From Thermoanaerobaculales bacterium (GTDB lineage: Bacteria > Acidobacteriota > Thermoanaerobaculia > Thermoanaerobaculales > Sulfomarinibacteraceae): a stretch of 64,000 nt of DNA. Where the stretch lies: contig JARFRM010000077.1 in the NCBI GenBank assembly GCA_029287235.1, forward strand, positions 1-64,000, read 5' to 3'. Positions 3,207 to 61,277 of the stretch are shown here, in pieces. The position numbers and the translations under genes were made by a program. Position 1 is the stretch's first letter, and each line of letters begins with the position of its first letter. The notes under the pieces are model-generated. The model searched no databases, was not told where the DNA came from, and saw only the letters and a program-made list of their open reading frames with translations.

Positions 3207-3797
3207 GTGGAAATTCGTGAGGTCAACTTTCGTTCCTCGGCGTTGAAAGCGTCGGATCGACCGCAGGAGTTCTTTCCTCAGATCGCGGTTGCCGGACGTT
3301 CCAACGTCGGCAAGTCGAGCCTGCTCAACTGGCTCTTGCGTCAGAATATGGCGCGAGTGGCCAAGGCCCCGGGAAAGACACGAATGCTGAACTTCTTTCT
3401 GATCAACCGGTCGTTCTTCCTGGTCGATCTTCCGGGCTATGGCTACGCCAAGGTCGGTCGGGCGCTTCAGGAGGAGTGGGGCCGGGAGCTCGGGAACTAC
3501 CTCGCGACGGAAGAGAGACTGGCCGGGGTCATCACCCTGGTGGACATCCGACACGGACCCACCGATCTCGATCTCGGACTTCAGGAACTGTTGCTGGCCC
3601 ATGGTCGGGAACGCCTCGTCGTGCTGACCAAGGCCGATAAGGTCAAGCGCGGCAAACGGGCAAGCATGCAGTTTCGGGTACAGAAAGAGCTCGGCCTGGC
3701 GCGTCCCCCCGCGGTGGTCAGCGTCAAGACTGGAGAAGGTCGCAAAGAGCTGCTCGGCCTTATCGACGAACTCGTCGAAGCATGGCGATCGAAATAA
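3207..3797 (+). CDS. engB: EngB/YsxC ribosome-biogenesis GTPase
   Basis: This TRAFAC-class GTPase is needed for late assembly of the large ribosomal subunit. The visible G motifs are G1 [10 protein letters not shown]3 DLPGYGYAK and G4 TKADK, and the length of about 196 residues is normal. I chose the GTG at 3207, five bases after the lon stop, because it gives the usual short N-terminus ([12 protein letters not shown]). An in-frame ATG at 3162 would overlap lon and add 15 atypical residues, and neither start has a strong ribosome site. The tight spacing suggests co-transcription with lon and with rho downstream. Confidence 0.93.
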
Positions 3798-3810
3798 CGG
3801 AGAAACAGAC

Positions 3811-5175
3811 ATGGGACGCAAGAAGAAAAACTCAACCGAAGACCCGGTGGTGATCCCCCTCGACCTCGATGACGAAATCGAGGAACGGGAGCAGGCGGCG
3901 GCTGCTGCCGCGGCCCAGGAGGGTCGACTCGACCTCACCCAGCTCAAGGAGATGACCATCAACGAGCTCTGTGGTGTGGCCAAGTCGCTCACCGTGGAAA
4001 ACCCGGCCGGGATGAGACGACAGGACCTTATTTTCCGTATCCTTCAGCGACAGACCGAGCGTGAGGGTCTGATCTTCGGTGAGGGAGTGCTCGAGGTTCT
4101 TCCCGAGGGTTTTGGATTCCTGCGCGCTCCCGAGTACAACTATCTTCCGGGTCCGGACGACATCTATGTTTCGCCGTCGCAGATCCGTCGATTCAACCTG
4201 CACACCGGCGACACCGTTTCGGGTCAGATCCGTCCGCCCAAGGAGGGTGAACGGTACTTCGCACTCATCAAGGTCGAGGCCATCAACTTCGAGCCGCCCG
4301 AAGTGGCCATGGAAAAGGTGCACTTCGACAATCTGACTCCGCTCTATCCGGAGGAGCGGATCACCCTCGAGGTCGAGGAAAACATGACCTCGCGGATCAT
4401 GGATCTGACGACCCCCCTCGGCAAGGGCCAGCGCGGTCTCCTGGTGGCGCCGCCACGCACCGGAAAAACCATGATGTTGCAGGCCATTGCCAACTCCATC
4501 ACCACCAACCATCCCGAAGTGACCCTCATCGTGCTGCTCATCGACGAGCGGCCCGAAGAGGTCACGGACATGCAGCGTTCGGTGCACGGCGAGGTCATTT
4601 CATCGACCTTCGACGAGCCCGCCACCCGCCACGTCCAGGTCGCGGAGATGGTGATCGAGAAGGCCAAACGGCTGGTCGAACACAAACGGGACGTGGTGAT
4701 CCTCCTCGATTCCATCACCCGTCTTGCTCGCGCCTACAACACCGTAGTGCCCCCCTCCGGGAAGGTGCTCTCCGGTGGCGTCGACTCCAACGCGCTGCAG
4801 AAACCCAAGCGGTTCTTCGGCGCCGCCCGCAACATCGAGGAGGGAGGCAGCCTGACCATCGTCGGCACCGCACTCATCGATACCGGTTCCCGAATGGATG
4901 ACGTGATTTTCGAGGAGTTCAAAGGGACCGGTAACATGGAGGTCCACCTCGACCGAAAGCTCGTCGAGCGGCGGGTGTTTCCCTCCATCGACATCCACAA
5001 GTCCGGCACCCGGAAAGAGGAACTCCTCATCGACGAGTGGGAGCTCCGCCGGATCTGGGTCCTGCGCAAGGTGCTGTCGTCCCTTTCCCCGGTCGAGGCG
5101 ATGGAGCTCTTGCAGGAGCGCCTCGGCGGATCGCCGACGAATCGGGAGTTTCTCGAAGCGATGTCCCAAGGGTGA
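3811..5175 (+). CDS. rho: Transcription termination factor Rho
   Basis: Rho is the hexameric RNA-dependent ATPase that terminates transcription on untranslated RNA. At 454 residues it has an acidic, alanine-rich N-terminus of about 45 residues. The Rho N-terminal helical domain follows ([13 protein letters not shown]), then the OB-fold RNA-binding domain with [12 protein letters not shown], then the RecA-like ATPase with Walker A APPRTGKT at about 213-220. The Q-loop and R-loop region ([20 protein letters not shown]) is intact. An ACGGAGAAACAGAC ribosome site precedes the ATG. A dispersed inverted repeat lies directly downstream. Rho is expected to handle many terminators here, since few intrinsic terminators are visible in the window. 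Confidence 0.97.
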
Positions 5176-5186
5176 CGCTTCGCGCC

Positions 5187-5280
5187 GAGCTATTAGCCGT
5201 AAGCCATGAGCTGTTAGCCCATCGCAGGGGTTCCGCGGATCCTCGAGCGGATATTGTGATAGAGCTAAGAGCTAAGAGCC
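5187..5280. repeat. Dispersed TTAGCNN inverted repeat, copy A
   Basis: This is a degenerate inverted repeat. The left arm (about 5187-5230) consists of TTAGC-type heptads ending in CCATCGCA. The right arm (about 5253-5280) begins TTGTGATAG and continues AGCTAAGAGCTAAGAGCC, which is close to the reverse complement of the left arm. It lies between rho and mqnC and could fold in RNA as a long imperfect hairpin. The same architecture recurs at four other places in the window. Confidence 0.8.
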
Positions 5281-5320
5281 GTGCTTGACACGCGAAGACG
5301 ACAAGGAGAGACTCGGTCGC

Positions 5321-6388
5321 ATGACGGTTGCATCAATCCTCGACAAGGCGGTGGTGGGCGAGCGAATCGACGCGGGTGAGATCGAGCGGCTCTTCTCCGA
5401 GGGCTCTCTCCTCGAGCTCGGCCAGGCGGCGGACGCCGTTCGGCGGCAAAAGACCGAGGAGGGCGTCGCCTCCTACATCATCGACCGCAACATCAACTAC
5501 ACCAACGTCTGTATCTATCGCTGCCGGTTCTGCGCCTTCTATCGCACCAAAGAAGCGAGTGACGCCTATGTCCTCCCGTTTTCCGAGATCGCCGACAAGA
5601 TTGCGGAAACCGTGGCGTCAGGTGGTACCGGAATCCTCCTTCAAGGCGGTGTCCACCCCGACCTCCGTATGGAGTTCTACGAAGATCTGCTTCGGCAACT
5701 CAAGACCAACTTCCCCGAGGTCCATCTGCACGCGTTTTCGGTGCCGGAGATCTGGTTTCTCGCCAAGGTGGAGAAACTCCCGGTGTCCGACGTGATCTCG
5801 CGACTCATGGCGGTGGGGCTCGAGTCGATCCCTGGAGGCGGGGCCGAGATCCTCGAGGACACAACCAGGCGGCGGATCTTGTCCCGCGCCAAGGCCAACA
5901 CCGATCAGTGGCTCGAGGTCCACCGAATCGCCCACGATCTCGGGCTGCGGACCACAGCCACCATGATGTTCGGGGTCGGTGAACCGACCGCGGCTCGGGT
6001 TGACCATTTTCTCGGTATCCGCGGCCTGCAGGACCGCACCGGTGGTTTCACCGCGTTCATTCCCTGGACCTTTCAGGACCGGAGCACCGACCTCGAGGGA
6101 GAGGTGGAGCCCGCCGGTGGTTTTGACTATCTGAAGACTCTCGCCATCGCCCGGCTCGCCCTGGACAATGTCGATCACGTCCAGGGATCGTGGGTGACCC
6201 AGGGGGCCAAGATCGGCCAGCTGTCGCTCTTTTTCGGCGCGGACGATCTGGGATCCATCATGCTCGAGGAAAACGTCGTCGCCTCCGCCGGCGTCGAGTT
6301 CAGGATGACGCAGCCCGACATGGAGAGAACCATCCGCGAAGCGGGTCTCACGCCTCGACAACGCCGCACCCTTTACGAACCGCTGTAG
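5321..6388 (+). CDS. mqnC: MqnC, cyclic dehypoxanthine futalosine synthase (radical SAM)
   Basis: This radical SAM enzyme cyclises dehypoxanthine futalosine in the futalosine pathway to menaquinone. The cluster motif is CIYRCRFCAFYR (CX3CX2C), preceded by NINYTNV. The blocks QGGVHPDL and IPGGGAEIL fit MqnC better than its paralogue MqnE, whose corresponding block is usually GPGGGAEIF. I chose the ATG at 5321 because AAGGAGAG lies about 10 bases upstream; a TTG at 5285 would add 12 residues. Length is 355 residues, normal for the family. No other menaquinone gene is nearby. Copies of the dispersed repeat sit on both sides of the gene. Confidence 0.92.
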   Translation: MTVASILDKAVVGERIDAGEIERLFSEGSLLELGQAADAVRRQKTEEGVASYIIDRNINYTNVCIYRCRFCAFYRTKEASDAYVLPFSEIADKIAETVASGGTGILLQGGVHPDLRMEFYEDLLRQLKTNFPEVHLHAFSVPEIWFLAKVEKLPVSDVISRLMAVGLESIPGGGAEILEDTTRRRILSRAKANTDQWLEVHRIAHDLGLRTTATMMFGVGEPTAARVDHFLGIRGLQDRTGGFTAFIPWTFQDRSTDLEGEVEPAGGFDYLKTLAIARLALDNVDHVQGSWVTQGAKIGQLSLFFGADDLGSIMLEENVVASAGVEFRMTQPDMERTIREAGLTPRQRRTLYEPL

Positions 6389-6407
6389 TTCCCACAGCGG
6401 ACAGAGG

Positions 6408-6513
6408 CCTTAGCTATTAGTCCTTAGCCGTTAGCTCCATCACAACAAAACTGATCCTGTCCCGAAGGCGATTGCGATGGAGCTAATAGCTAACTGCTGA
6501 TTGCTAAGAGCTT
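6408..6513. repeat. Dispersed TTAGCNN inverted repeat, copy B
   Basis: This is the best-preserved copy. The left arm 6408-6444 reads as TTAGC heptads and ends CTCCATCACAA. The right arm 6471-6510 begins TTGCGATGGAGCTAATAGC, the reverse complement apart from single changes. About 26 bases separate the arms. It fills the space between the convergent mqnC and rng genes and ends three bases before the rng stop codon, so it could act as a bidirectional terminator hairpin. Confidence 0.85.
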
Positions 6514-6515
6514 TC

Positions 6516-7997
6516 CTACCCGATAATCTCGAACTGCTCCTGATGCAGGACGGGGTTCTCACGCAGGATGACCTGGACTCCGTGGACCTCTTCGAGCTCT
6601 CGAAGGAGTTCTCGGAACGGCCCCTGCAGATAGTGAGATACCTCAGGGTGGACCACCAGAGAGACCTGCTCACCGAGCTCGGCGGCCAGGGCCGCGAGAA
6701 GCTCACGGCGAATCTCGAGACAGATCGTCGCCAACGCCTTGATCCGCCCTGAGCCATGGCAGTAGGGGCATTCGCGACTCAGGGTTCGATCCAGGCTCGG
6801 TCGGGTGCGCTTTCGAGTCAGCTGGATCAGTCCGATATCGGACATGGGGAGAAGTTGGGTCCGCGCCGAGTCGGCCTCGAGCTCGGTCTCCAGGGCCTGG
6901 TAGACCTCGAGGCGGTGAGCCGATTCCTCCATGTCGATGAAGTCGATGACGACGATTCCCCCAAGGTCGCGAAGCCGGAGCTGACGGACGATCTCTCCTA
7001 CTGCCTCGAGGTTGAGGGTGAAGACGGTCTCCTCGAGCGATTTCGTACCCACATACTTGCCGGTGTTCACGTCAATCGCCACCAACGCCTCGGTTTGATT
7101 GACCACCAGATAGCCACCGGATTTGAGCCACACCTTGGGACGCAACGCCTTCTCGAGCTCGCGGTCGAGACCGAAGGCGCTCATGAGGTCGGTGGACTTG
7201 CGGTAGAGCTTGAGGCGGGGCACCAGCGTCGGATCACTCGTTTCGAGAAATTCGAGGACCTCCTCGAAGGCCTCTTCGTCGTCGACCCACGCTTCCTGCA
7301 CCGCCGAGGTGAAGGTGTCGCGGACCGCCCGCAGAACCGGGCTCAGTTCGTGGTGGACGAGGTAGGGCGCGTGGGTCCGATCGGCGCTGGCCTGGATCTG
7401 GTCCCAACGCTGGACGAGATAGCGCCGATCCGACTCCAGTTCGACCCCTCCCTGACCCTCGCCGGCGGTGCGGACGATCCAACCACCACCCCCGAACTCC
7501 TCGATGATCGTCTTGAGTCGAGCGCGTTCGTCGTCATCGGTGATCCGCCGCGAGACTCCGAGTTGATCAACCGTCGGCATGTAGACCAGGAAGCGTCCGG
7601 GCAGGGTGATGTGCGTGGTCAGGCGGGCGCCCTTGGTGCCGATGGGGTCTTTGACGACCTGGACGAGAATCTCCTGACCCTGACGCAGCAGATCGCCGAT
7701 GTCGGTGTCCACCACCTCGCTCGGTCCCGGATCTTCATCAACCCGGAAGATGTCGGTGAAGTCATCCAAGATCCCGCCGGCTTCACGGACATAGAGAAAT
7801 CCATCGCGGGAAAGCCCCACATCGACGAACGCCGCTTGCATCCCTGGGAGGACGCGGGTCACCCGGCCCTTGTAGAGATTTCCCACCACCGATGACGATC
7901 GGTGGCGTTCCGCCCGGTAGCTGACCAGCCGTGACTTCTCGCGCAGAGCCACCCGGGTTTCGAAAGGGTTGACCGAGAGAAAGAGAATGGAGGTCAT
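6516..7997 (-). CDS. rng: Ribonuclease G (RNase E/G family)
   Basis: This is an endoribonuclease for rRNA and mRNA processing. An N-terminal S1 domain (NLYKGRVTRVLPGMQAAFVD) is followed by the catalytic DNase I-like domain with metal-binding aspartates in VAIDVNTGKYVG and GIVVIDFIDM. The zinc-link motif CPYCHG comes next. At 493 residues it is the size of E. coli RNase G and lacks the long scaffold tail of RNase E. The chosen ATG overlaps the rodA stop codon (TGATG), which implies translational coupling; the frame is open further upstream, but that part is antisense to rodA. It is the last gene of the mre operon, recalling the mreBCD-rng linkage of proteobacteria. Confidence 0.94.
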   Translation of the reverse strand: MTSILFLSVNPFETRVALREKSRLVSYRAERHRSSSVVGNLYKGRVTRVLPGMQAAFVDVGLSRDGFLYVREAGGILDDFTDIFRVDEDPGPSEVVDTDIGDLLRQGQEILVQVVKDPIGTKGARLTTHITLPGRFLVYMPTVDQLGVSRRITDDDERARLKTIIEEFGGGGWIVRTAGEGQGGVELESDRRYLVQRWDQIQASADRTHAPYLVHHELSPVLRAVRDTFTSAVQEAWVDDEEAFEEVLEFLETSDPTLVPRLKLYRKSTDLMSAFGLDRELEKALRPKVWLKSGGYLVVNQTEALVAIDVNTGKYVGTKSLEETVFTLNLEAVGEIVRQLRLRDLGGIVVIDFIDMEESAHRLEVYQALETELEADSARTQLLPMSDIGLIQLTRKRTRPSLDRTLSRECPYCHGSGRIKALATICLEIRRELLAALAAELGEQVSLVVHPEVSHYLQGPFRELLRELEEVHGVQVILRENPVLHQEQFEIIG

Positions 7998-52502: not shown

Positions 52503-53342
52503 TCACCCCGCCGGGACGCCGCTGACGTCCCCGAGTAGCGGTCGCACTTGCTCGTCGAACATGGCGGCAATGTCTGAGCCCTTGAGCAGGGTAATCGCAT
52601 TGCTGTGCTGCTCGACCATGGATCGGATCGCGTCAAAACCGGCTCCCTGCTCGATGAGAACCCGGGTGCCGGCGTACTGTTTTTCGATCGTGTGTTCACC
52701 GCTTTCGCCGACCACATCGAGAGCGACTGACCTGATCCGGTTGGCGAGCCCGATTAAGGTCACCGGACTCGGGCCCTGGTGATTGGTCTCGGTCCTCGAC
52801 TCGTCGGTGGCGGAGCGCAGAGCGACCAGCCCCGAGGTGATCATTCCGAAGAGAAGCTTGGAGACGTCGAACGCGGACCAGTGCAGCTGTTCGGCAATCT
52901 CCTCAATGGTGTGTTCATTGTCGATACGGGTGACGAGGATCCACTCGTGGGGACTCAGGGTGACCTGGTCCGACTGATCCCCCGAGGAAAAAAAAGGGAT
53001 CAGATCAAGCGAGGGGATCTTTCGTGACAGGACTCGCCACTCGTCGAGGCGGCGTGCCGCCTCCATCATGAGATTTGCATTGGAGAGATGTATCGTGACC
53101 GCTTCGGTTTCTTCACCGGGGTTGAAGGTGAAGTCGCCCTCAGCCCAGATCGCCATCTCATAGACCGCGTTGTCGCCGCGCAGGGCGCCGACGACCGCAT
53201 CGACGATCTGGCCATCCCGAAGGAAGATCTTTCCCAGCTCGTCGTGGCGAGCAACCGAAAACACACCGGTCTTCCCCGAGACGCTGACCATCTGAATCAC
53301 GTCAGGTAGAGAGAGCTCGGAGAGAGACCCTTGCAATGCCAT
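52503..53342 (-). CDS. DUF4388 (PATAN) domain protein
   Basis: The 279-residue protein opens with MALQGSLSELSLPDVIQMVS and GKTGVFSVARHDELGKIFLR, the hallmark of DUF4388/PATAN domains. DGQIVDAVVGALRGDNAVY follows. A winged-helix-like middle (TIEEIAEQLHWSAFDVSKLL) and a helical C-terminus come after. Such domains bind signalling partners in bacteria with Ras-like GTPases. It is embedded between tonB (19 bp) and the TPR gene (25 bp), so it is co-transcribed with the Exb motor. A second DUF4388 protein lies at 34568-35947. Confidence 0.82.
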   Translation of the reverse strand: MALQGSLSELSLPDVIQMVSVSGKTGVFSVARHDELGKIFLRDGQIVDAVVGALRGDNAVYEMAIWAEGDFTFNPGEETEAVTIHLSNANLMMEAARRLDEWRVLSRKIPSLDLIPFFSSGDQSDQVTLSPHEWILVTRIDNEHTIEEIAEQLHWSAFDVSKLLFGMITSGLVALRSATDESRTETNHQGPSPVTLIGLANRIRSVALDVVGESGEHTIEKQYAGTRVLIEQGAGFDAIRSMVEQHSNAITLLKGSDIAAMFDEQVRPLLGDVSGVPAG

Positions 53343-53361: not shown

Positions 53362-54087
53362 TTACTGCAGGTTGAACCGTACAGTCAGAATGTACAGTAC
53401 CTCCACCGGCTTCCCATTGAGGGTCGACGGCTTGAACTTCCATTTCCGAACCGCGTCCTCGGCCGCTTCCGTGAGGCCGAGAGGCAACGGTCGCAGTACC
53501 TTGACCGCCTGGACGTTGCCGGTCTTCCCGATGGTGCACTCGAGGACCACGACTCCCTGGATCCGAGCGCGACGGGCCGCTTCCGGGTAGACCGGGTTGG
53601 GTCCGCTGAGCTTCTCGGGCTCGGTGATGTTCCCGCCCACGACGAAACGCACCGGCCCTTCCGGCTCCGGCGGTGGTGGCGCGTCCGGAATGCCGAGGAC
53701 CAGATTGTCATCGGGAACGAAATCGATGTCTTCGTCAGGCTCGTCATCGCGGATCGGTTCCGGCTCGTCGGGCGTGGGATCCGGAATCGGAACCTTCTTG
53801 CTCTTTGGTTTCGGAATCTGCTGGAGCTCCTGCTTGGGAGGCTGTTTGAATTTGACCTGTTTGACCACGTAGATCTTGGTCTTTTTCTCGGTCGCATCCT
53901 TGAGACCGCCGGCAAAAGTCGGCCAGTGAAACGCGAAGATGAAGATGTGCAAGACGACGGCCACGCCGACCGCGATGCGGGTGAGCTTCTTGTCCTGCTG
54001 CTCTTCCTGCGCGATGATCTCGATGACCGTCGGTTTCATCTTGGGCTCAGGCGCCTTGGATGCTGGTGCTTTGGGCGTCTCGGTCAT
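53362..54087 (-). CDS. tonB: TonB energy-transducing protein
   Basis: TonB (241 residues) has a cytosolic N-terminus of about 35 residues, longer than usual, then one membrane helix (AVGVAVVLHIFIFAFHW). The proline/lysine and acidic linker spans about residues 75-150. The C-terminal TonB fold has NPVYPEAARRARIQGVVVL and AVRKWKFKP. It transmits proton-motive energy to outer-membrane receptors. It follows the two exbD genes by nine bases. Confidence 0.93.
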   Translation of the reverse strand: MTETPKAPASKAPEPKMKPTVIEIIAQEEQQDKKLTRIAVGVAVVLHIFIFAFHWPTFAGGLKDATEKKTKIYVVKQVKFKQPPKQELQQIPKPKSKKVPIPDPTPDEPEPIRDDEPDEDIDFVPDDNLVLGIPDAPPPPEPEGPVRFVVGGNITEPEKLSGPNPVYPEAARRARIQGVVVLECTIGKTGNVQAVKVLRPLPLGLTEAAEDAVRKWKFKPSTLNGKPVEVLYILTVRFNLQ

Positions 54088-54096
54088 ACTGCCTCC

Positions 54097-54594
54097 TCAC
54101 CCCATTCCCAGGAGGTTCCAGATGTTCTCGATTTCCCGCTGGGTCGGGATCGAGATGGTCTTGATCTCGGTCAGCGGCTCGCCTTTCACATCCTTGTACA
54201 TGGGGTTGCCTAGGTCGTCGGTCCACTCCTCGTTGGCTCGGCGGAGAAGGTCGAAGATCGAGATCATGTCGCCGTAGGTGGCGTCGGGATCGGTTCGCAG
54301 GATCACCGGTTTGTCGGGGTTCTGCTGCAGTTTCTCGAGCACATACGGCAGCAGTCCGTCGACCGGAATACTCTTCTTGTCGACCTCGATGGCTCCACCC
54401 GGCATCACGTGGACCTCGATGGCGTCTTCCTGCTTGATCTCCGGGGTGTCGGTCTCCTCAGGCAGCGCGAAGTCGAGACCACGGGTCGCCGAGAATGCCG
54501 AGGTGATCATGAAATAGATGATCAGCAGGAACGAGATGTCGGCCATGGACCCGGTGAAGATCTCGGACGCGATTTCTTTCTTTTTTATTTTCAT
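54097..54594 (-). CDS. ExbD-family motor protein (second copy)
   Basis: The 165-residue protein has one membrane helix with the conserved aspartate (SMADISFLLIIYFMI) that carries protons in ExbD/TolR. The periplasmic domain contains the typical PVILRTDPDATYGDMISIFD block. The N-terminus is basic (MKIKKKE). A C-terminal extension of about 30 residues (PLTEIKTISIPTQREI) is unusual. It lies between the first exbD (13 bp) and tonB (9 bp). Confidence 0.92.
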   Translation of the reverse strand: MKIKKKEIASEIFTGSMADISFLLIIYFMITSAFSATRGLDFALPEETDTPEIKQEDAIEVHVMPGGAIEVDKKSIPVDGLLPYVLEKLQQNPDKPVILRTDPDATYGDMISIFDLLRRANEEWTDDLGNPMYKDVKGEPLTEIKTISIPTQREIENIWNLLGMG

Positions 54595-54607: not shown

Positions 54608-55051
54608 TTACAGTTCCGCCGCCGTCAGCTGCTCAGACAGGAGGAAGATGTATTTCACCTTCGACTGCTTGAGCGCATCGAGAACCTCGTCAACCCGACC
54701 ATAGGGCGCATCCTTGTCGGCTTTGAGGATGAACTCCCTGTTCGGGTTTTTCGCCACCTCGGTCGAGGCGAAGGTGATCACCTCTTCGATGGTGCTCACG
54801 GGAAGCGCCATCTCCTCGCCGGTGGAGACCCGAATCGTCGAACCCCTGTCAGGCGGCGCGATCGAGATCACAGCTGCCTTCTCGGGAATCTTCTTTCGAA
54901 TCCAGGTTTCGGGTAGGTTCATCTGCGTCTTGTCGACCTCGACCTTGTACGTGAGGACGAAGAACACGATCAAGAGGAAGACGATGTCCGCCATGGAGGC
55001 GGTGAAGATCGCCGCCCCGGTTCCTCGGTCTCTGCCGCGAATCAGTGCCAT
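54608..55051 (-). CDS. exbD: ExbD-family motor protein (first copy)
   Basis: The 147-residue protein has the proton-carrying aspartate in SMADIVFLLIVFFVL and the periplasmic domain REFILKADKDAPYGRVDEVLDALK. Two non-identical ExbD proteins with one ExbB suggest a mixed 5:2-type motor with one copy of each. It starts 15 bases after exbB. Confidence 0.93.
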   Translation of the reverse strand: MALIRGRDRGTGAAIFTASMADIVFLLIVFFVLTYKVEVDKTQMNLPETWIRKKIPEKAAVISIAPPDRGSTIRVSTGEEMALPVSTIEEVITFASTEVAKNPNREFILKADKDAPYGRVDEVLDALKQSKVKYIFLLSEQLTAAEL

Positions 55052-55066
55052 CGCGGACTCCCTTCC

Positions 55067-55705
55067 TCAGGCCTTGTTCTCACCGCTCCCGTCCATCTCG
55101 GTGAAGGTTTCCAGGAGCATGTTGGTCGCGGTCTCGATATCGCGTACGAAGCGCGTGATCTTCGTCGTGTACCAGTTGTAGGCGAGCTGCGCCGGAATCG
55201 CGATGATCAGACCGGTGGCGGTGGTGATCAGCGCTTCGGAGATACCGACGGCAACCGCTGCCGGGTTGGTCAGACCCTGCTCCGCGAGAGTGGCGAAGGA
55301 TTTGATCATCCCGGCGACCGTCCCGAGGAAGCCGAGCATGGGCGCCACGTTAGCCGTGGTCGCGAGAACGCCCATTCGCTTTTCCAATCGGTCGAGCTCG
55401 TACAGAGCCGCGTTCTCGATGGTCTTCTCGATGTCTTCACGGCTGTGGCCATAGCGCAGCAATCCGGCTTTCATCACCGAAGCCACGGGTCCGCGATTAC
55501 TCTCACAGACTTTGATGGCTTCCTTGACGTTCCGGTTGACCAGCAGCGCCTTGCGGATCTTGGTCAAAAATTCATTGACATTGATCCGCGCCTTGGTCAG
55601 CACGATGAATCGCTCGATGATGACGGTTAACGCCAGCAACGAGAAGAAGAGTAGCGGCCACATGAAGATCCCACCCTGGCGGAATAGATCTGCTACCTGT
55701 CCCAC
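55067..55705 (-). CDS. exbB: ExbB/TolQ-family motor protein
   Basis: The 212-residue protein has three membrane helices: WPLLFFSLLALTVIIERFIV near the N-terminus, and two around VAPMLGFLGTVAGMIKSF and LITTATGLIIAIPAQLAY. Both conserved blocks, GFLGTVAGM and TATGLIIAIP, line the ExbB channel. It is the first gene of the operon, with AGGAGG before the ATG. The 55706-55918 region upstream has no gene and should contain the promoter. Confidence 0.94.
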   Translation of the reverse strand: MGQVADLFRQGGIFMWPLLFFSLLALTVIIERFIVLTKARINVNEFLTKIRKALLVNRNVKEAIKVCESNRGPVASVMKAGLLRYGHSREDIEKTIENAALYELDRLEKRMGVLATTANVAPMLGFLGTVAGMIKSFATLAEQGLTNPAAVAVGISEALITTATGLIIAIPAQLAYNWYTTKITRFVRDIETATNMLLETFTEMDGSGENKA

Positions 55706-57370: not shown

Positions 57371-60088
57371 ATGAGCGCCAATATCTTACTCATCGAGTAC
57401 GAGCAGAGTTCCGTCGATGACTTTCGGAACGCACTCGCCGGGCGAGGTCACCGCCTCGAAGTTGCCGGTGATCTGAACGCCGCAGTACAGGTTTGCGCCC
57501 ATTTCGAACCCAAGATCGTCGCCATCACTTCAGCGTTGCCGCAGGTCACCGTCGGTGATGCGATCACCCAGCTTCGAGCTCGTGCGGGTCTTCGGGTCAC
57601 GCCCTTTTTGATCCTCATGCCGGGATACCTGGGGGAGGATTCGGTCGCCGACGCCGAGGCTCACGGCGCCCAGGACATTCTCGCGCCGCCGTTCACCGAA
57701 GACGAGATGCAGCAGAAGATCGACGCTCTCCTGAGGGCCTCGGCCGAAATCCTGACCACCCAGGCGGTGCCGCAAGAGACCCTCGACGCCCTGCGCCGTG
57801 GGAACACCGACGACGACGGGGAGTCCTTCAGCTCCGATGATCTCTTCGCCGACATCCTCTCGGATGTCGAGCGCGCGGGGGTTTCAGAAAGCGCAACCCC
57901 GGCCCAGGGGCCACCGGCCGAGAAACCGACCGCAGCCAACGACACGAGCGTCGACGATGCCCTGGCGGATGTCCTCGGTGATCCGGTGGCGGCTCGCGAG
58001 AGCTCGCGCGCCAAGACCAACGCCGAAGTCGACGCCATGCTGTCGGAGACCCTGGCGGGGCTCGAGGTCTCATCCTCCACACCGACCACCAAGAAGGCCC
58101 CGGAGGCTGAGAAGATCGAGACACCGGAGGCCGGGACCCCATCGGTCGCTTCGTCGTCTCAGAAGGGCGCCCCCGCGGTTGAGCAGCCGAAGCCGGAGAC
58201 CGTCGAGAAAGACTCCTCCGCAGAACCGGCGGAAGAGGACGGTGCGCCTCCGGTGCCTGCAGGTACGACCTTCGGACAGTACGTCCTCGAGGAACACATT
58301 GCCACCGGAGGGATGGCTCAAGTCTACAAAGCCCGGATGTTGGGCCTCGAAGGGTTCCAGAAGACCGTCGCCATCAAACGGATTCTGCCCCACCTGACGA
58401 ACAATGAAGAGTTCGTCAAGATGTTTGTCGACGAGGCGAAGCTGGCGGCCCAGCTCAACCACCCCAACATCATTCACATCTACGATCTCGGGAAGATCGA
58501 CCGGTCCCACTACATCGCCATGGAGTACATCGAGGGGAGAGACCTGCGGTCGATCCTCGATGGGTGCCGTAACCGGGGTGTCGGGATCCCGGTGCCCCTC
58601 GCGCTGCACATTGCCCATTTGCTGGCGGGCGCACTCGACTACGCGCACAAGAAGCGTGACTTCGACAATCGCGACCTCGGGTTGGTTCATCGGGACGTAT
58701 CGCCCCAGAATGTCCTGATCTCCTCGGTCGGCGAGATCAAGCTCTGCGATTTCGGGATCGCCAAGGCCGCCTCCAAGGCGTCGCACACCCGTGCCGGGGC
58801 GCTCAAGGGCAAGCTCCAATACATGTCACCCGAACAGGCCTGGGGCAAGGACATCGACCACCGATCGGATGTCTTCTCCCTCGGCCTCGTGCTTTACGAA
58901 ATGTTGACCGCCCACAAGGTCTTCACCGGTGACTCGGAGCTGTCGATTCTCGAGCAGGTCCGCAACCCCGAAGTCGCTCCACCGTCGACGTTGCTGCCGG
59001 TGATTCCGGCGGAGATCGACCGGATCGTTTTGAAGGCCTTGAACCCGGAGCGGACCGGTCGCTACCAGACGGCGCTCGATCTCCAGCGCGAATTCGAGGC
59101 GATCCTCAAGAGCCACGGCTGGGAGCCGGACACCGCCTCGCTGGTCGGCTTCATCGGCGAGCTCGAATCGGGCTCCGAGATCACGGACTTCCCGGCCGGA
59201 GAGGTTGCGGCGCCGGTTGACGATGGTCCGCCGGCCGAACCACCGAAAGAGCCGCCGGAGACATCACCGGAACCACCGCCGGATGATGCGATGGACCTAC
59301 CGCTGCTGGCCGAGCCGATATCGGAATTGGCGGCAGCCGAGACCGAATCGACGGGCGGAGCCGGAAAGTGGTTGTGGATCGCGATCGCGATGGTGCTGGT
59401 CGCGCTCATCGCCGGGTGGTGGTTCTTCATGGGTCCGGGTGCGGGCGGGGGTGACGCCTCCGCTCCACCGACACCCTTACCGGCCGCTGTTGAGGCGACT
59501 CCGACACCGGATGCGGGCATCGAGGACGGCTTGATGGATGAAGCCGAGCTTTTGGAACGCGCCCGCGAGGTGGCGGCCGCCGAGATGACGAAGCAGGAGC
59601 AGGAGCTCAGAGACCGGCTCGAAAAGGAGTTCCCGACACCCACACCGCTGCCGCCCACCGAGACACCGACCGAGACACCGACCGAGACACCGGTTCCGAG
59701 CCCGACACCGACCCCGCCGCCACCGACGCCCACGAGGGTGCCTACGGCGACCCCGATTCCCATGACCCCGACGCCGGTCGTCTCAGAAGGTGACATCGTC
59801 GAAGCGGGACCGGGCGTGGTGGCGCCGGTTCTGATCCACCGGGTCGATCCGGAGTACCCGCCCATCGCGCAACGCGCCGGAGTCTCAGGTGATGTTGTCG
59901 CTCAGCTTCTCGTCGGCATCGATGGTCGGGTGGAAGATGTTCGGAATATCACGGCCTCGAGCAAGGGCGTAGGATTCGAGCGCTCGACCGAGGCGGCGAT
60001 CCGCCAGTGGCGATACCGACCCGCGAGCAAGAACGGGGTCAAGGTTCGAGTGTGGGTCCAAATCAAGGTCAATCTCACGTTGAATTGA
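57371..60088 (+). CDS. Transmembrane Ser/Thr kinase with pseudo-receiver and TonB C-terminal domain
   Basis: The 905-residue protein has four parts. First, a receiver-like domain (1-125) that lacks the key residues: threonine (Thr53) replaces the phosphorylated aspartate, and the conserved lysine before PF is a proline. Second, a charged linker leading to a complete Hanks-type kinase (about 301-575) with GGMAQVY, Lys336 in VAIKRI, HRDVSPQN (Asp442) and DFG (460-462). Third, a single membrane helix (about 667-688) and a periplasmic linker rich in proline and threonine (repeats of TETP). Fourth, a TonB C-terminal domain (about 820-905) with PEYPPIAQRAGVSGDV and AIRQWRYRP. The kinase is expected in the cytosol and the TonB fold in the periplasm. 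The Exb/TonB operon lies 1.7 kb upstream on the other strand. Confidence 0.9.
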   Translation: MSANILLIEYEQSSVDDFRNALAGRGHRLEVAGDLNAAVQVCAHFEPKIVAITSALPQVTVGDAITQLRARAGLRVTPFLILMPGYLGEDSVADAEAHGAQDILAPPFTEDEMQQKIDALLRASAEILTTQAVPQETLDALRRGNTDDDGESFSSDDLFADILSDVERAGVSESATPAQGPPAEKPTAANDTSVDDALADVLGDPVAARESSRAKTNAEVDAMLSETLAGLEVSSSTPTTKKAPEAEKIETPEAGTPSVASSSQKGAPAVEQPKPETVEKDSSAEPAEEDGAPPVPAGTTFGQYVLEEHIATGGMAQVYKARMLGLEGFQKTVAIKRILPHLTNNEEFVKMFVDEAKLAAQLNHPNIIHIYDLGKIDRSHYIAMEYIEGRDLRSILDGCRNRGVGIPVPLALHIAHLLAGALDYAHKKRDFDNRDLGLVHRDVSPQNVLISSVGEIKLCDFGIAKAASKASHTRAGALKGKLQYMSPEQAWGKDIDHRSDVFSLGLVLYEMLTAHKVFTGDSELSILEQVRNPEVAPPSTLLPVIPAEIDRIVLKALNPERTGRYQTALDLQREFEAILKSHGWEPDTASLVGFIGELESGSEITDFPAGEVAAPVDDGPPAEPPKEPPETSPEPPPDDAMDLPLLAEPISELAAAETESTGGAGKWLWIAIAMVLVALIAGWWFFMGPGAGGGDASAPPTPLPAAVEATPTPDAGIEDGLMDEAELLERAREVAAAEMTKQEQELRDRLEKEFPTPTPLPPTETPTETPTETPVPSPTPTPPPPTPTRVPTATPIPMTPTPVVSEGDIVEAGPGVVAPVLIHRVDPEYPPIAQRAGVSGDVVAQLLVGIDGRVEDVRNITASSKGVGFERSTEAAIRQWRYRPASKNGVKVRVWVQIKVNLTLN

Positions 60089-60464: not shown

Positions 60465-61277
60465 GTGGCAAAGCCGATGGCCCAGACCGAGGGCGTGCCC
60501 AAGGGGCTGTGGATCAAGTGCAACGCGTGTCGGGAGATTCTCTATCACCGAGAGGTCTCGGGCAACCTGGACGTGTGTCCGCGTTGCGGTTATCACTTTC
60601 GAATCAGTGCCACCCAACGACTCGAACTCCTCTTCGACAACAAGCGCTACAAGAAGTTCTTCGGCCAGGTTCGCTCCGCCGATCCGTTGGACTTTGCCGA
60701 CTCCAAACCGTATCGAGACCGGCTCGAGGTCTACAACCGCAAGTTTGCCGGGTCGGACTCCATCGTGGTCGCCCAGGGAGAGATCGAGAAACAGTGCGCC
60801 ATGGTGGCCGCCATGGAGTTCGGTTTCATGGGCGGATCCATGGGATCGGCGGTGGGTGAGAAAATCGCCCGCGCCATCGAGCGTTGCCTGGACAAGAAGC
60901 TGCCGTTGATCGTTGTTTCGGCCTCGGGTGGTGCGCGGATGCAGGAAGGCATTCTGTCGCTGATGCAGATGGCGAAGATTTCAGCCGGATTGGCGCGGAT
61001 GCGAGACCGGCATCTCGCCTACATCTCGATCCTTACCGATCCGACCACCGGTGGCGTCACCGCCAGCTATGCCATGCTCGGCGACGTCAACATCGCCGAA
61101 CCCGGTGCGCTGATCGGTTTCGCCGGCCCGCGGGTGATCGAGCAGACGATTCGGCAGAAGCTCCCCGAGGGTTTTCAGCGATCGGAGTTCCTTCTCGAGC
61201 ACGGCATGCTCGATCTCGTGGTGACGCGCCGCGAGCTCAAGGCGACCGTCGCGCGATGCCTCAAGTACTTCCGCTGA
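60465..61277 (+). CDS. accD: AccD, acetyl-CoA carboxylase carboxyltransferase beta subunit
   Basis: AccD (270 residues) transfers the carboxyl group from biotin to acetyl-CoA in fatty acid synthesis. An N-terminal zinc ribbon (CNAC and CPRC pairs) is followed by the crotonase-like domain with SASGGARMQEGILSLMQMAK and SYAMLGDVNIAEPGALIGFAGPRVIEQTI. GGGAGAAATAGG precedes the GTG at 60465; an ATG four codons on is possible. accA is not in the window. folC overlaps its end by 22 bases. Confidence 0.96.
   Translation: MAKPMAQTEGVPKGLWIKCNACREILYHREVSGNLDVCPRCGYHFRISATQRLELLFDNKRYKKFFGQVRSADPLDFADSKPYRDRLEVYNRKFAGSDSIVVAQGEIEKQCAMVAAMEFGFMGGSMGSAVGEKIARAIERCLDKKLPLIVVSASGGARMQEGILSLMQMAKISAGLARMRDRHLAYISILTDPTTGGVTASYAMLGDVNIAEPGALIGFAGPRVIEQTIRQKLPEGFQRSEFLLEHGMLDLVVTRRELKATVARCLKYFR

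Follow-up and report, generated by a model that had tools for sequence, protein, structure and literature searches.

What does a TonB C-terminal domain do at the far end of a serine/threonine kinase? The question is raised by a single open reading frame in the window analyzed here, a 64,000-nucleotide stretch (positions 1 to 64,000 of contig JARFRM010000077.1, assembly GCA_029287235.1) from a Thermoanaerobaculales bacterium of the Acidobacteriota. Its product joins a pseudo-receiver, a Hanks kinase, a single transmembrane (TM) helix, a Pro/Thr-rich linker, and a TonB C-terminal domain (TonB_C), in that order (Table 1). An earlier note, made from the letters alone, had proposed this five-part layout for one polypeptide, and Pfam, TM prediction, structure models, and orthologs confirm it. 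The start (MSANILLIEYE) is in register with the starts of aligned orthologs. An assembly join within the reading frame, including the join between two genes in the linker that the earlier note had raised against its own reading, is excluded, since the same one-frame domain order recurs in tens of independent assemblies. No paper on a Ser/Thr kinase joined to a TonB C-terminus was found in the open literature searched. The arrangement is real, conserved, and undescribed in that literature; its mechanism is one that we infer.

Table 1. Features of the kinase locus, its neighbors, and related loci. Coordinates without a contig or locus name are those of the window.
Feature	Position	Strand	Basis
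Rec-like/Ser-Thr kinase/TM/linker/TonB_C protein, 905 aa	57371..60088	+	ORF call, Pfam, orthologs
Pseudo-receiver, aa 1-125, T53 at phospho-Asp site, P106 at Lys site	57371..57745	+	Pfam, model, alignment
Low-complexity cytosolic linker, aa 140-235	57788..58075	+	Conservation line
Hanks-type Ser/Thr kinase, aa 304-581, catalytic residues intact	58280..59113	+	Pfam, motif alignment
Single TM helix, ~aa 668-688, no His	59372..59434	+	TM prediction, ortholog comparison
Periplasmic helix (predicted), aa 724-753	59540..59629	+	AlphaFold pLDDT 83-92
Pro/Thr-rich periplasmic linker, aa 755-806	59633..59788	+	Sequence, periplasmic conservation
TonB C-terminal domain, aa 818-905	59822..60085	+	Pfam, AlphaFold, structure match, E. 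coli TonB match
Small coiled-coil partner gene, 76 aa	60102..60332	+	Ortholog synteny, alignment
Presumed accD (named from sequence knowledge), conserved downstream neighbor	60465..61277	+	Neighbor conservation
DUF4388 protein, frequent neighbor	52503..53342	-	Pfam, synteny
True TonB with TM His, conserved divergent neighbor	53362..54087	-	Pfam, NCBIfam, synteny, TM check
ExbD/TolR-like	54097..54594	-	Synteny, NCBIfam
ExbD/TolR-like, second	54608..55051	-	Synteny, NCBIfam
ExbB/TolQ-like	55067..55705	-	Synteny, NCBIfam
Pseudokinase-TM-TonB_C protein	Own genome contig C297; L188 2203-4233	+	Motif and domain search; orthologs L192-L221
Cobalamin riboswitch directly after small gene (f12/f38)	L174 5260-5447, L180 4547-4727, L178 4703-4887		
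Cobalamin riboswitch directly after small gene (f12/f38)	L109 9792-9976, L177 9071-9257, L176 4860-5034		

The C-terminus has the TonB fold that the earlier note expected. Pfam TonB_C matched aa 827 to 901 (2.1e-16, 60.5 bits versus a cut-off of 24.6), the last 102 residues matched E. coli TonB directly by sequence (8.8e-10), and this region of the AlphaFold model had a pLDDT above 90. The periplasmic model also matched solved TonB C-terminal domains, including those in complexes with BtuB, FhuA, and FoxA, with target-normalized TM-scores of ~0.8. Near-invariant positions among orthologs are Y143, P144, A147, G154, G166, P198, and G203, in the numbering of the periplasmic fragment. On the cytosolic side, Pfam Pkinase matched aa 304 to 533 (9.7e-39), and the VAIK, HRDVSPQN, and DFG motifs, carrying the Lys, HRD, and DFG residues of a Hanks kinase, are intact and invariant across the family alignment; the kinase, already read as intact in the earlier note, is thus predicted to be catalytically competent. 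Its best whole-domain relative in NCBIfam was the PASTA kinase model NF033483 (294 bits versus a 450-bit cut-off), in a match that ends at aa 687, and Pfam matched no PASTA repeats in the protein.

The N-terminal domain is a receiver in fold, without the Asp that would be phosphorylated. Pfam Response_reg matched aa 5 to 117 under its cut-off (E 1.9e-4, 22 bits versus 30.2); despite this, modeling indicates that the receiver is real as a fold, with a mean pLDDT of 90 for an AlphaFold model built from 52 orthologs and matches to the receiver domains of KdpE and PhoB. Asp occupies position 53 in 0 of 52 class orthologs, where T or S is most frequent (Thr in the window protein); Glu is often found there in more distant relatives, and Asp is present at the phospho-acceptor site of L160, a receiver-kinase without TonB_C. 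Position 106 is Pro in the window protein and K or R in most relatives; thus, both the missing Asp and the missing Lys had been read correctly, with the loss of Lys being local and the loss of Asp alone a family trait. The otherwise variable linker between receiver and kinase carries two conserved short motifs, S-x-x-LFxDxL (~aa 155 to 163) and TLxGL (~aa 227 to 231), which are possible docking sites.

How widely is this fusion kept? When 84,980 species genomes were scanned, each of the best 80 loci bore the title of an Acidobacteriota group or of an uncultured bacterium, and phylum-level sampling covered the Acidobacteriota only. All 40 nearest genomes, the window's own included, gave a match, that in G035 (74% complete) being merely of paralog strength (3.9e-44). 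Among 76 complete class orthologs, with duplicates and contig-end truncations taken out, the fusion with TonB_C is kept in 72 and missing in four (L094, L097, L102, and L114). More widely, most loci with the small downstream gene described below carry a kinase with TonB_C beside it, and other versions are a kinase that stops at the TM helix (family f31, L154 and L157; L156 has a similar layout), a kinase with a short soluble tail (f45 and f70; L173 and L160), receiver-TonB_C without a kinase (L163, L164, and L167), and TonB_C alone (L169 and L170). In family f23 (L181), the receiver is a separate gene (3433-4269) just upstream of kinase-TonB_C (4245-6557), and in family f21 (L190), the kinase with TonB_C is present and the small gene was not detected. 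TonB-less kinases are nested among TonB-bearing ones, with three changes on a quick tree with a distant outgroup and long branches, a pattern consistent with secondary loss of TonB_C. Together with its presence in 72 of 76 orthologs, this nesting indicates that the fusion is old and maintained. The view that the arrangement is not a standard one holds for the literature searched but not for the class, in which it is the rule and not the exception. Every one of the 52 genomes checked encodes TonB-dependent receptors and ExbB-type proteins, also where the kinase lacks TonB_C, so receptor absence was uninformative as a test. Some lineages without TonB_C keep the kinase and small protein as well as receptors and ExbB, so at least part of what the pair does must be independent of the TonB domain.

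The small gene begins 13 bp past the kinase stop, and a homolog lies directly downstream of the kinase in 76/76 non-redundant loci having downstream sequence. Its product has ten invariant alignment positions and a mean column identity of 63%, versus 23% for the periplasmic part of the kinase. It gave no NCBIfam hit and no Pfam match above cut-off, and its PDB matches were at coiled-coil level only. Across 199 Acidobacteriota genomes, 58 have both the kinase ortholog and the small gene, 5 the kinase only, 15 the small gene only, and 121 neither (Fisher p 7e-30, in a test that ignores shared ancestry).

Neighboring genes bear on the question of a transport partner. An ExbB-ExbD-ExbD-TonB operon lies ~2 kb upstream of the kinase in divergent orientation, within a block (YebC-RuvC-ExbB-ExbD-ExbD-TonB-DUF4388-TPR) common to many class members; accD, folC, and dgt lie downstream of the kinase and small gene in the class. 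The DUF4388 gene often stays by RuvC-YebC-kinase where ExbBD/TonB is absent. Other members have no ExbBD-TonB there. Genes for BtuF-like, FecCD/BtuC-like, and ABC ATPase proteins lie downstream of the small gene in 32 of 69 loci, and L057 and L058 have both sets. A complete TonB-dependent receptor gene, which the earlier note had suggested seeking nearby in relatives, is encoded downstream in families f12 and f38 and not in the window's own family; in the same two families, the small gene is followed by a cobalamin riboswitch (118 to 122 bits), after which comes the btuF-like gene. This gene order supports a putative link with TonB-dependent B12 uptake. Because the B12 transport genes have a riboswitch of their own ahead of them, they are separately regulated and co-regulation with the kinase is not required; the gene order may simply be inherited, with no functional meaning.

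A paralog in the same genome carries the same C-terminal domain on a pseudokinase, with HGF replacing HRD and GFG replacing DFG. A search with the pseudokinase of G009 gave pseudokinase-type matches in 38 of the 40 genomes, the window's own included, and none at 1e-20 in G004 or G035; in G037, G038, and G039, the most distant of the set, identity was only 31 to 37%. TonB_C was found in the extracted reading frame in 29 genomes, and these 29 pseudokinases read HGF wherever the printed stretch covers the site and GFG, GFV, or GLG in place of DFG. Within a genome, the TonB_C domains of kinase and pseudokinase are 27 to 46% identical, with the exception of G009 at 80% (L189 2670-4562, minus strand, and the L025 kinase), where a recent domain replacement is likely. 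Concerted evolution of the two domains as a general rule was rejected on the identities in the other genomes, and the 64 to 71% matches that had suggested it trace back to the query genome, G009, the only one with such a pair. The pseudokinase-TonB_C protein may be a co-receptor of the catalytic kinase. A short-chain reductase gene follows the pseudokinase gene (L188 4792-5562 and relatives) in roughly half the members of the window's family but in none of the sister family, and a coupling between the two is at most a weak candidate. The genome also encodes, on contig C33 (L003 1-1731, plus strand), a BlaR1-type M56 peptidase with STN and TonB_C.

Is the TonB domain of the kinase powered? A Ser/His pair conserved in the TM helix forms the contact of TonB with ExbB and of TolA with TolQ (PMC12215075). 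A single hydrophobic helix, clearly strong enough to span the membrane, lies between kinase and linker; its sequence is not conserved among orthologs, and it contains His in 0 of 79 of them versus 19 of 19 neighboring true TonBs. The protein is therefore classed here with the transmembrane Hanks kinases and not with the TonB energy transducers, and its TonB domain is, to judge from the helix, probably a passive sensor or tether rather than a motor arm. The span between TM helix and TonB_C (109 to 260 residues, median 141) exceeds that of the neighboring TonB in 14 of 16 pairs, so that reach to the outer membrane is possible; we infer a domain that is unpowered yet long enough to get there. The nearby ExbB-ExbD-ExbD-TonB genes in many orthologous loci, and the TonB-like C-terminal domain itself, would suit a working TonB driven by ExbBD, through which the kinase controls transport from the cytosol, but the missing His, the unconserved helix, and the many TonB_C-bearing loci without adjacent ExbBD make such a hybrid very improbable. 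Thus, of the role proposed in the earlier note, an envelope that reports to a cytosolic kinase stands, whereas the energized output arm is not supported. We favor, with moderate confidence, a trans-envelope receptor kinase with an unpowered TonB domain that most likely grips a TonB-dependent receptor. TonB_C would grip an outer-membrane or periplasmic partner without ExbBD power, partner binding or tension would alter kinase clustering and activity, and the pseudo-receiver and small coiled-coil protein would serve as docking or regulatory parts. Given a membrane-spanning kinase-TonB_C with an adjoining coiled-coil gene, the outer envelope probably reports to the cytoplasm.

The partner is less certain, with a TonB-dependent receptor and the cell wall both unproven candidates. 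Loaded TonB-dependent receptors expose their TonB box, and a receptor would for this reason be the likeliest partner, giving kinase-based cell-surface signaling. More doubtful is the specific proposal that the unpowered TonB_C samples the TonB boxes of loaded receptors, which in some families would include the receptor encoded next to the kinase behind a cobalamin riboswitch, and signals their occupancy through the kinase, the small protein, and the pseudokinase as co-receptor. Alternatively, TonB_C may bind peptidoglycan or a non-receptor protein, as an envelope tether of a kinase that would read the cell wall as PASTA kinases do and have no part in TonB-dependent transport. The relation to the PASTA kinase model (below its cut-off), the roles of the TonB-like proteins GltJ/AgmX and SjdR in gliding and septum structure (PMC8262864), the versions without kinase and without TonB_C, and the neighboring accD, whose part in fatty acid synthesis would suit control of envelope growth, all fit such a tether. 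We nevertheless consider it rather unlikely, as the domain resembles transport TonB more closely than it does the AgmX tail (NF033768, AgmX/PglI C-terminal; 19.0 bits, below a 40-bit cut-off) and transport genes recur near the kinase. Improbable in our estimation is a system whose conserved core pairs the small protein, as chief substrate or effector, with the kinase or the Rec-TonB protein, TonB_C being an accessory localization tag. The invariable position and stronger conservation of the small gene, and its persistence beside kinase-only, Rec-TonB-only, and TonB-only versions, agree with this; however, near-invariant TonB_C positions are unlike a dispensable tag, and the same facts are also compatible with the receptor kinase.

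Signaling in Acidobacteriota has been little studied, and kinase sets in the phylum can be large, with 51 Pkinase matches by Pfam in the window's own genome. The highly conserved small protein and the conserved pseudokinase-TonB_C family are newly pointed out here. To our knowledge, the known routes from a loaded TonB-dependent receptor to the cytoplasm run via anti-sigma factors. If the receptor-kinase reading is true, a kinase bearing a TonB domain would constitute a second, phosphorylation-based route.

Among known systems, the PASTA kinases (PknB/PrkC/Stk1, NF033483) share the cytosolic Hanks kinase, one TM helix, and an extracytoplasmic C-terminal binding domain, but here TonB_C replaces PASTA, a pseudo-receiver is added at the N-terminus, and the model score is below cut-off. 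The TonB energy transducer shares the TonB_C fold, Pro-rich periplasmic linker, and one TM helix, and differs in its TM His and in having no large cytosolic kinase in front. GltJ/AgmX gliding proteins are likewise non-transport membrane proteins with a TonB-like C-terminus (PMC8262864), but they have no kinase, and the AgmX tail model falls below cut-off on the window protein. The BlaR1-type M56 peptidase-STN-TonB_C proteins also place TonB_C on a membrane protein of signaling type, with a peptidase instead of a kinase. No sigma, anti-sigma, or FecR gene was among the neighbors identified at kinase loci. In the general FecA-FecR scheme, as presented in PMC11637429 and PMC7186176, a TonB-dependent receptor signals by way of an inner-membrane protein that crosses the membrane once. 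The likeness to that system would lie in the proposed signaling logic only, with a putative partnership here, a kinase as output, and TonB_C, rather than the FecR C-terminal domain, as the binding module.
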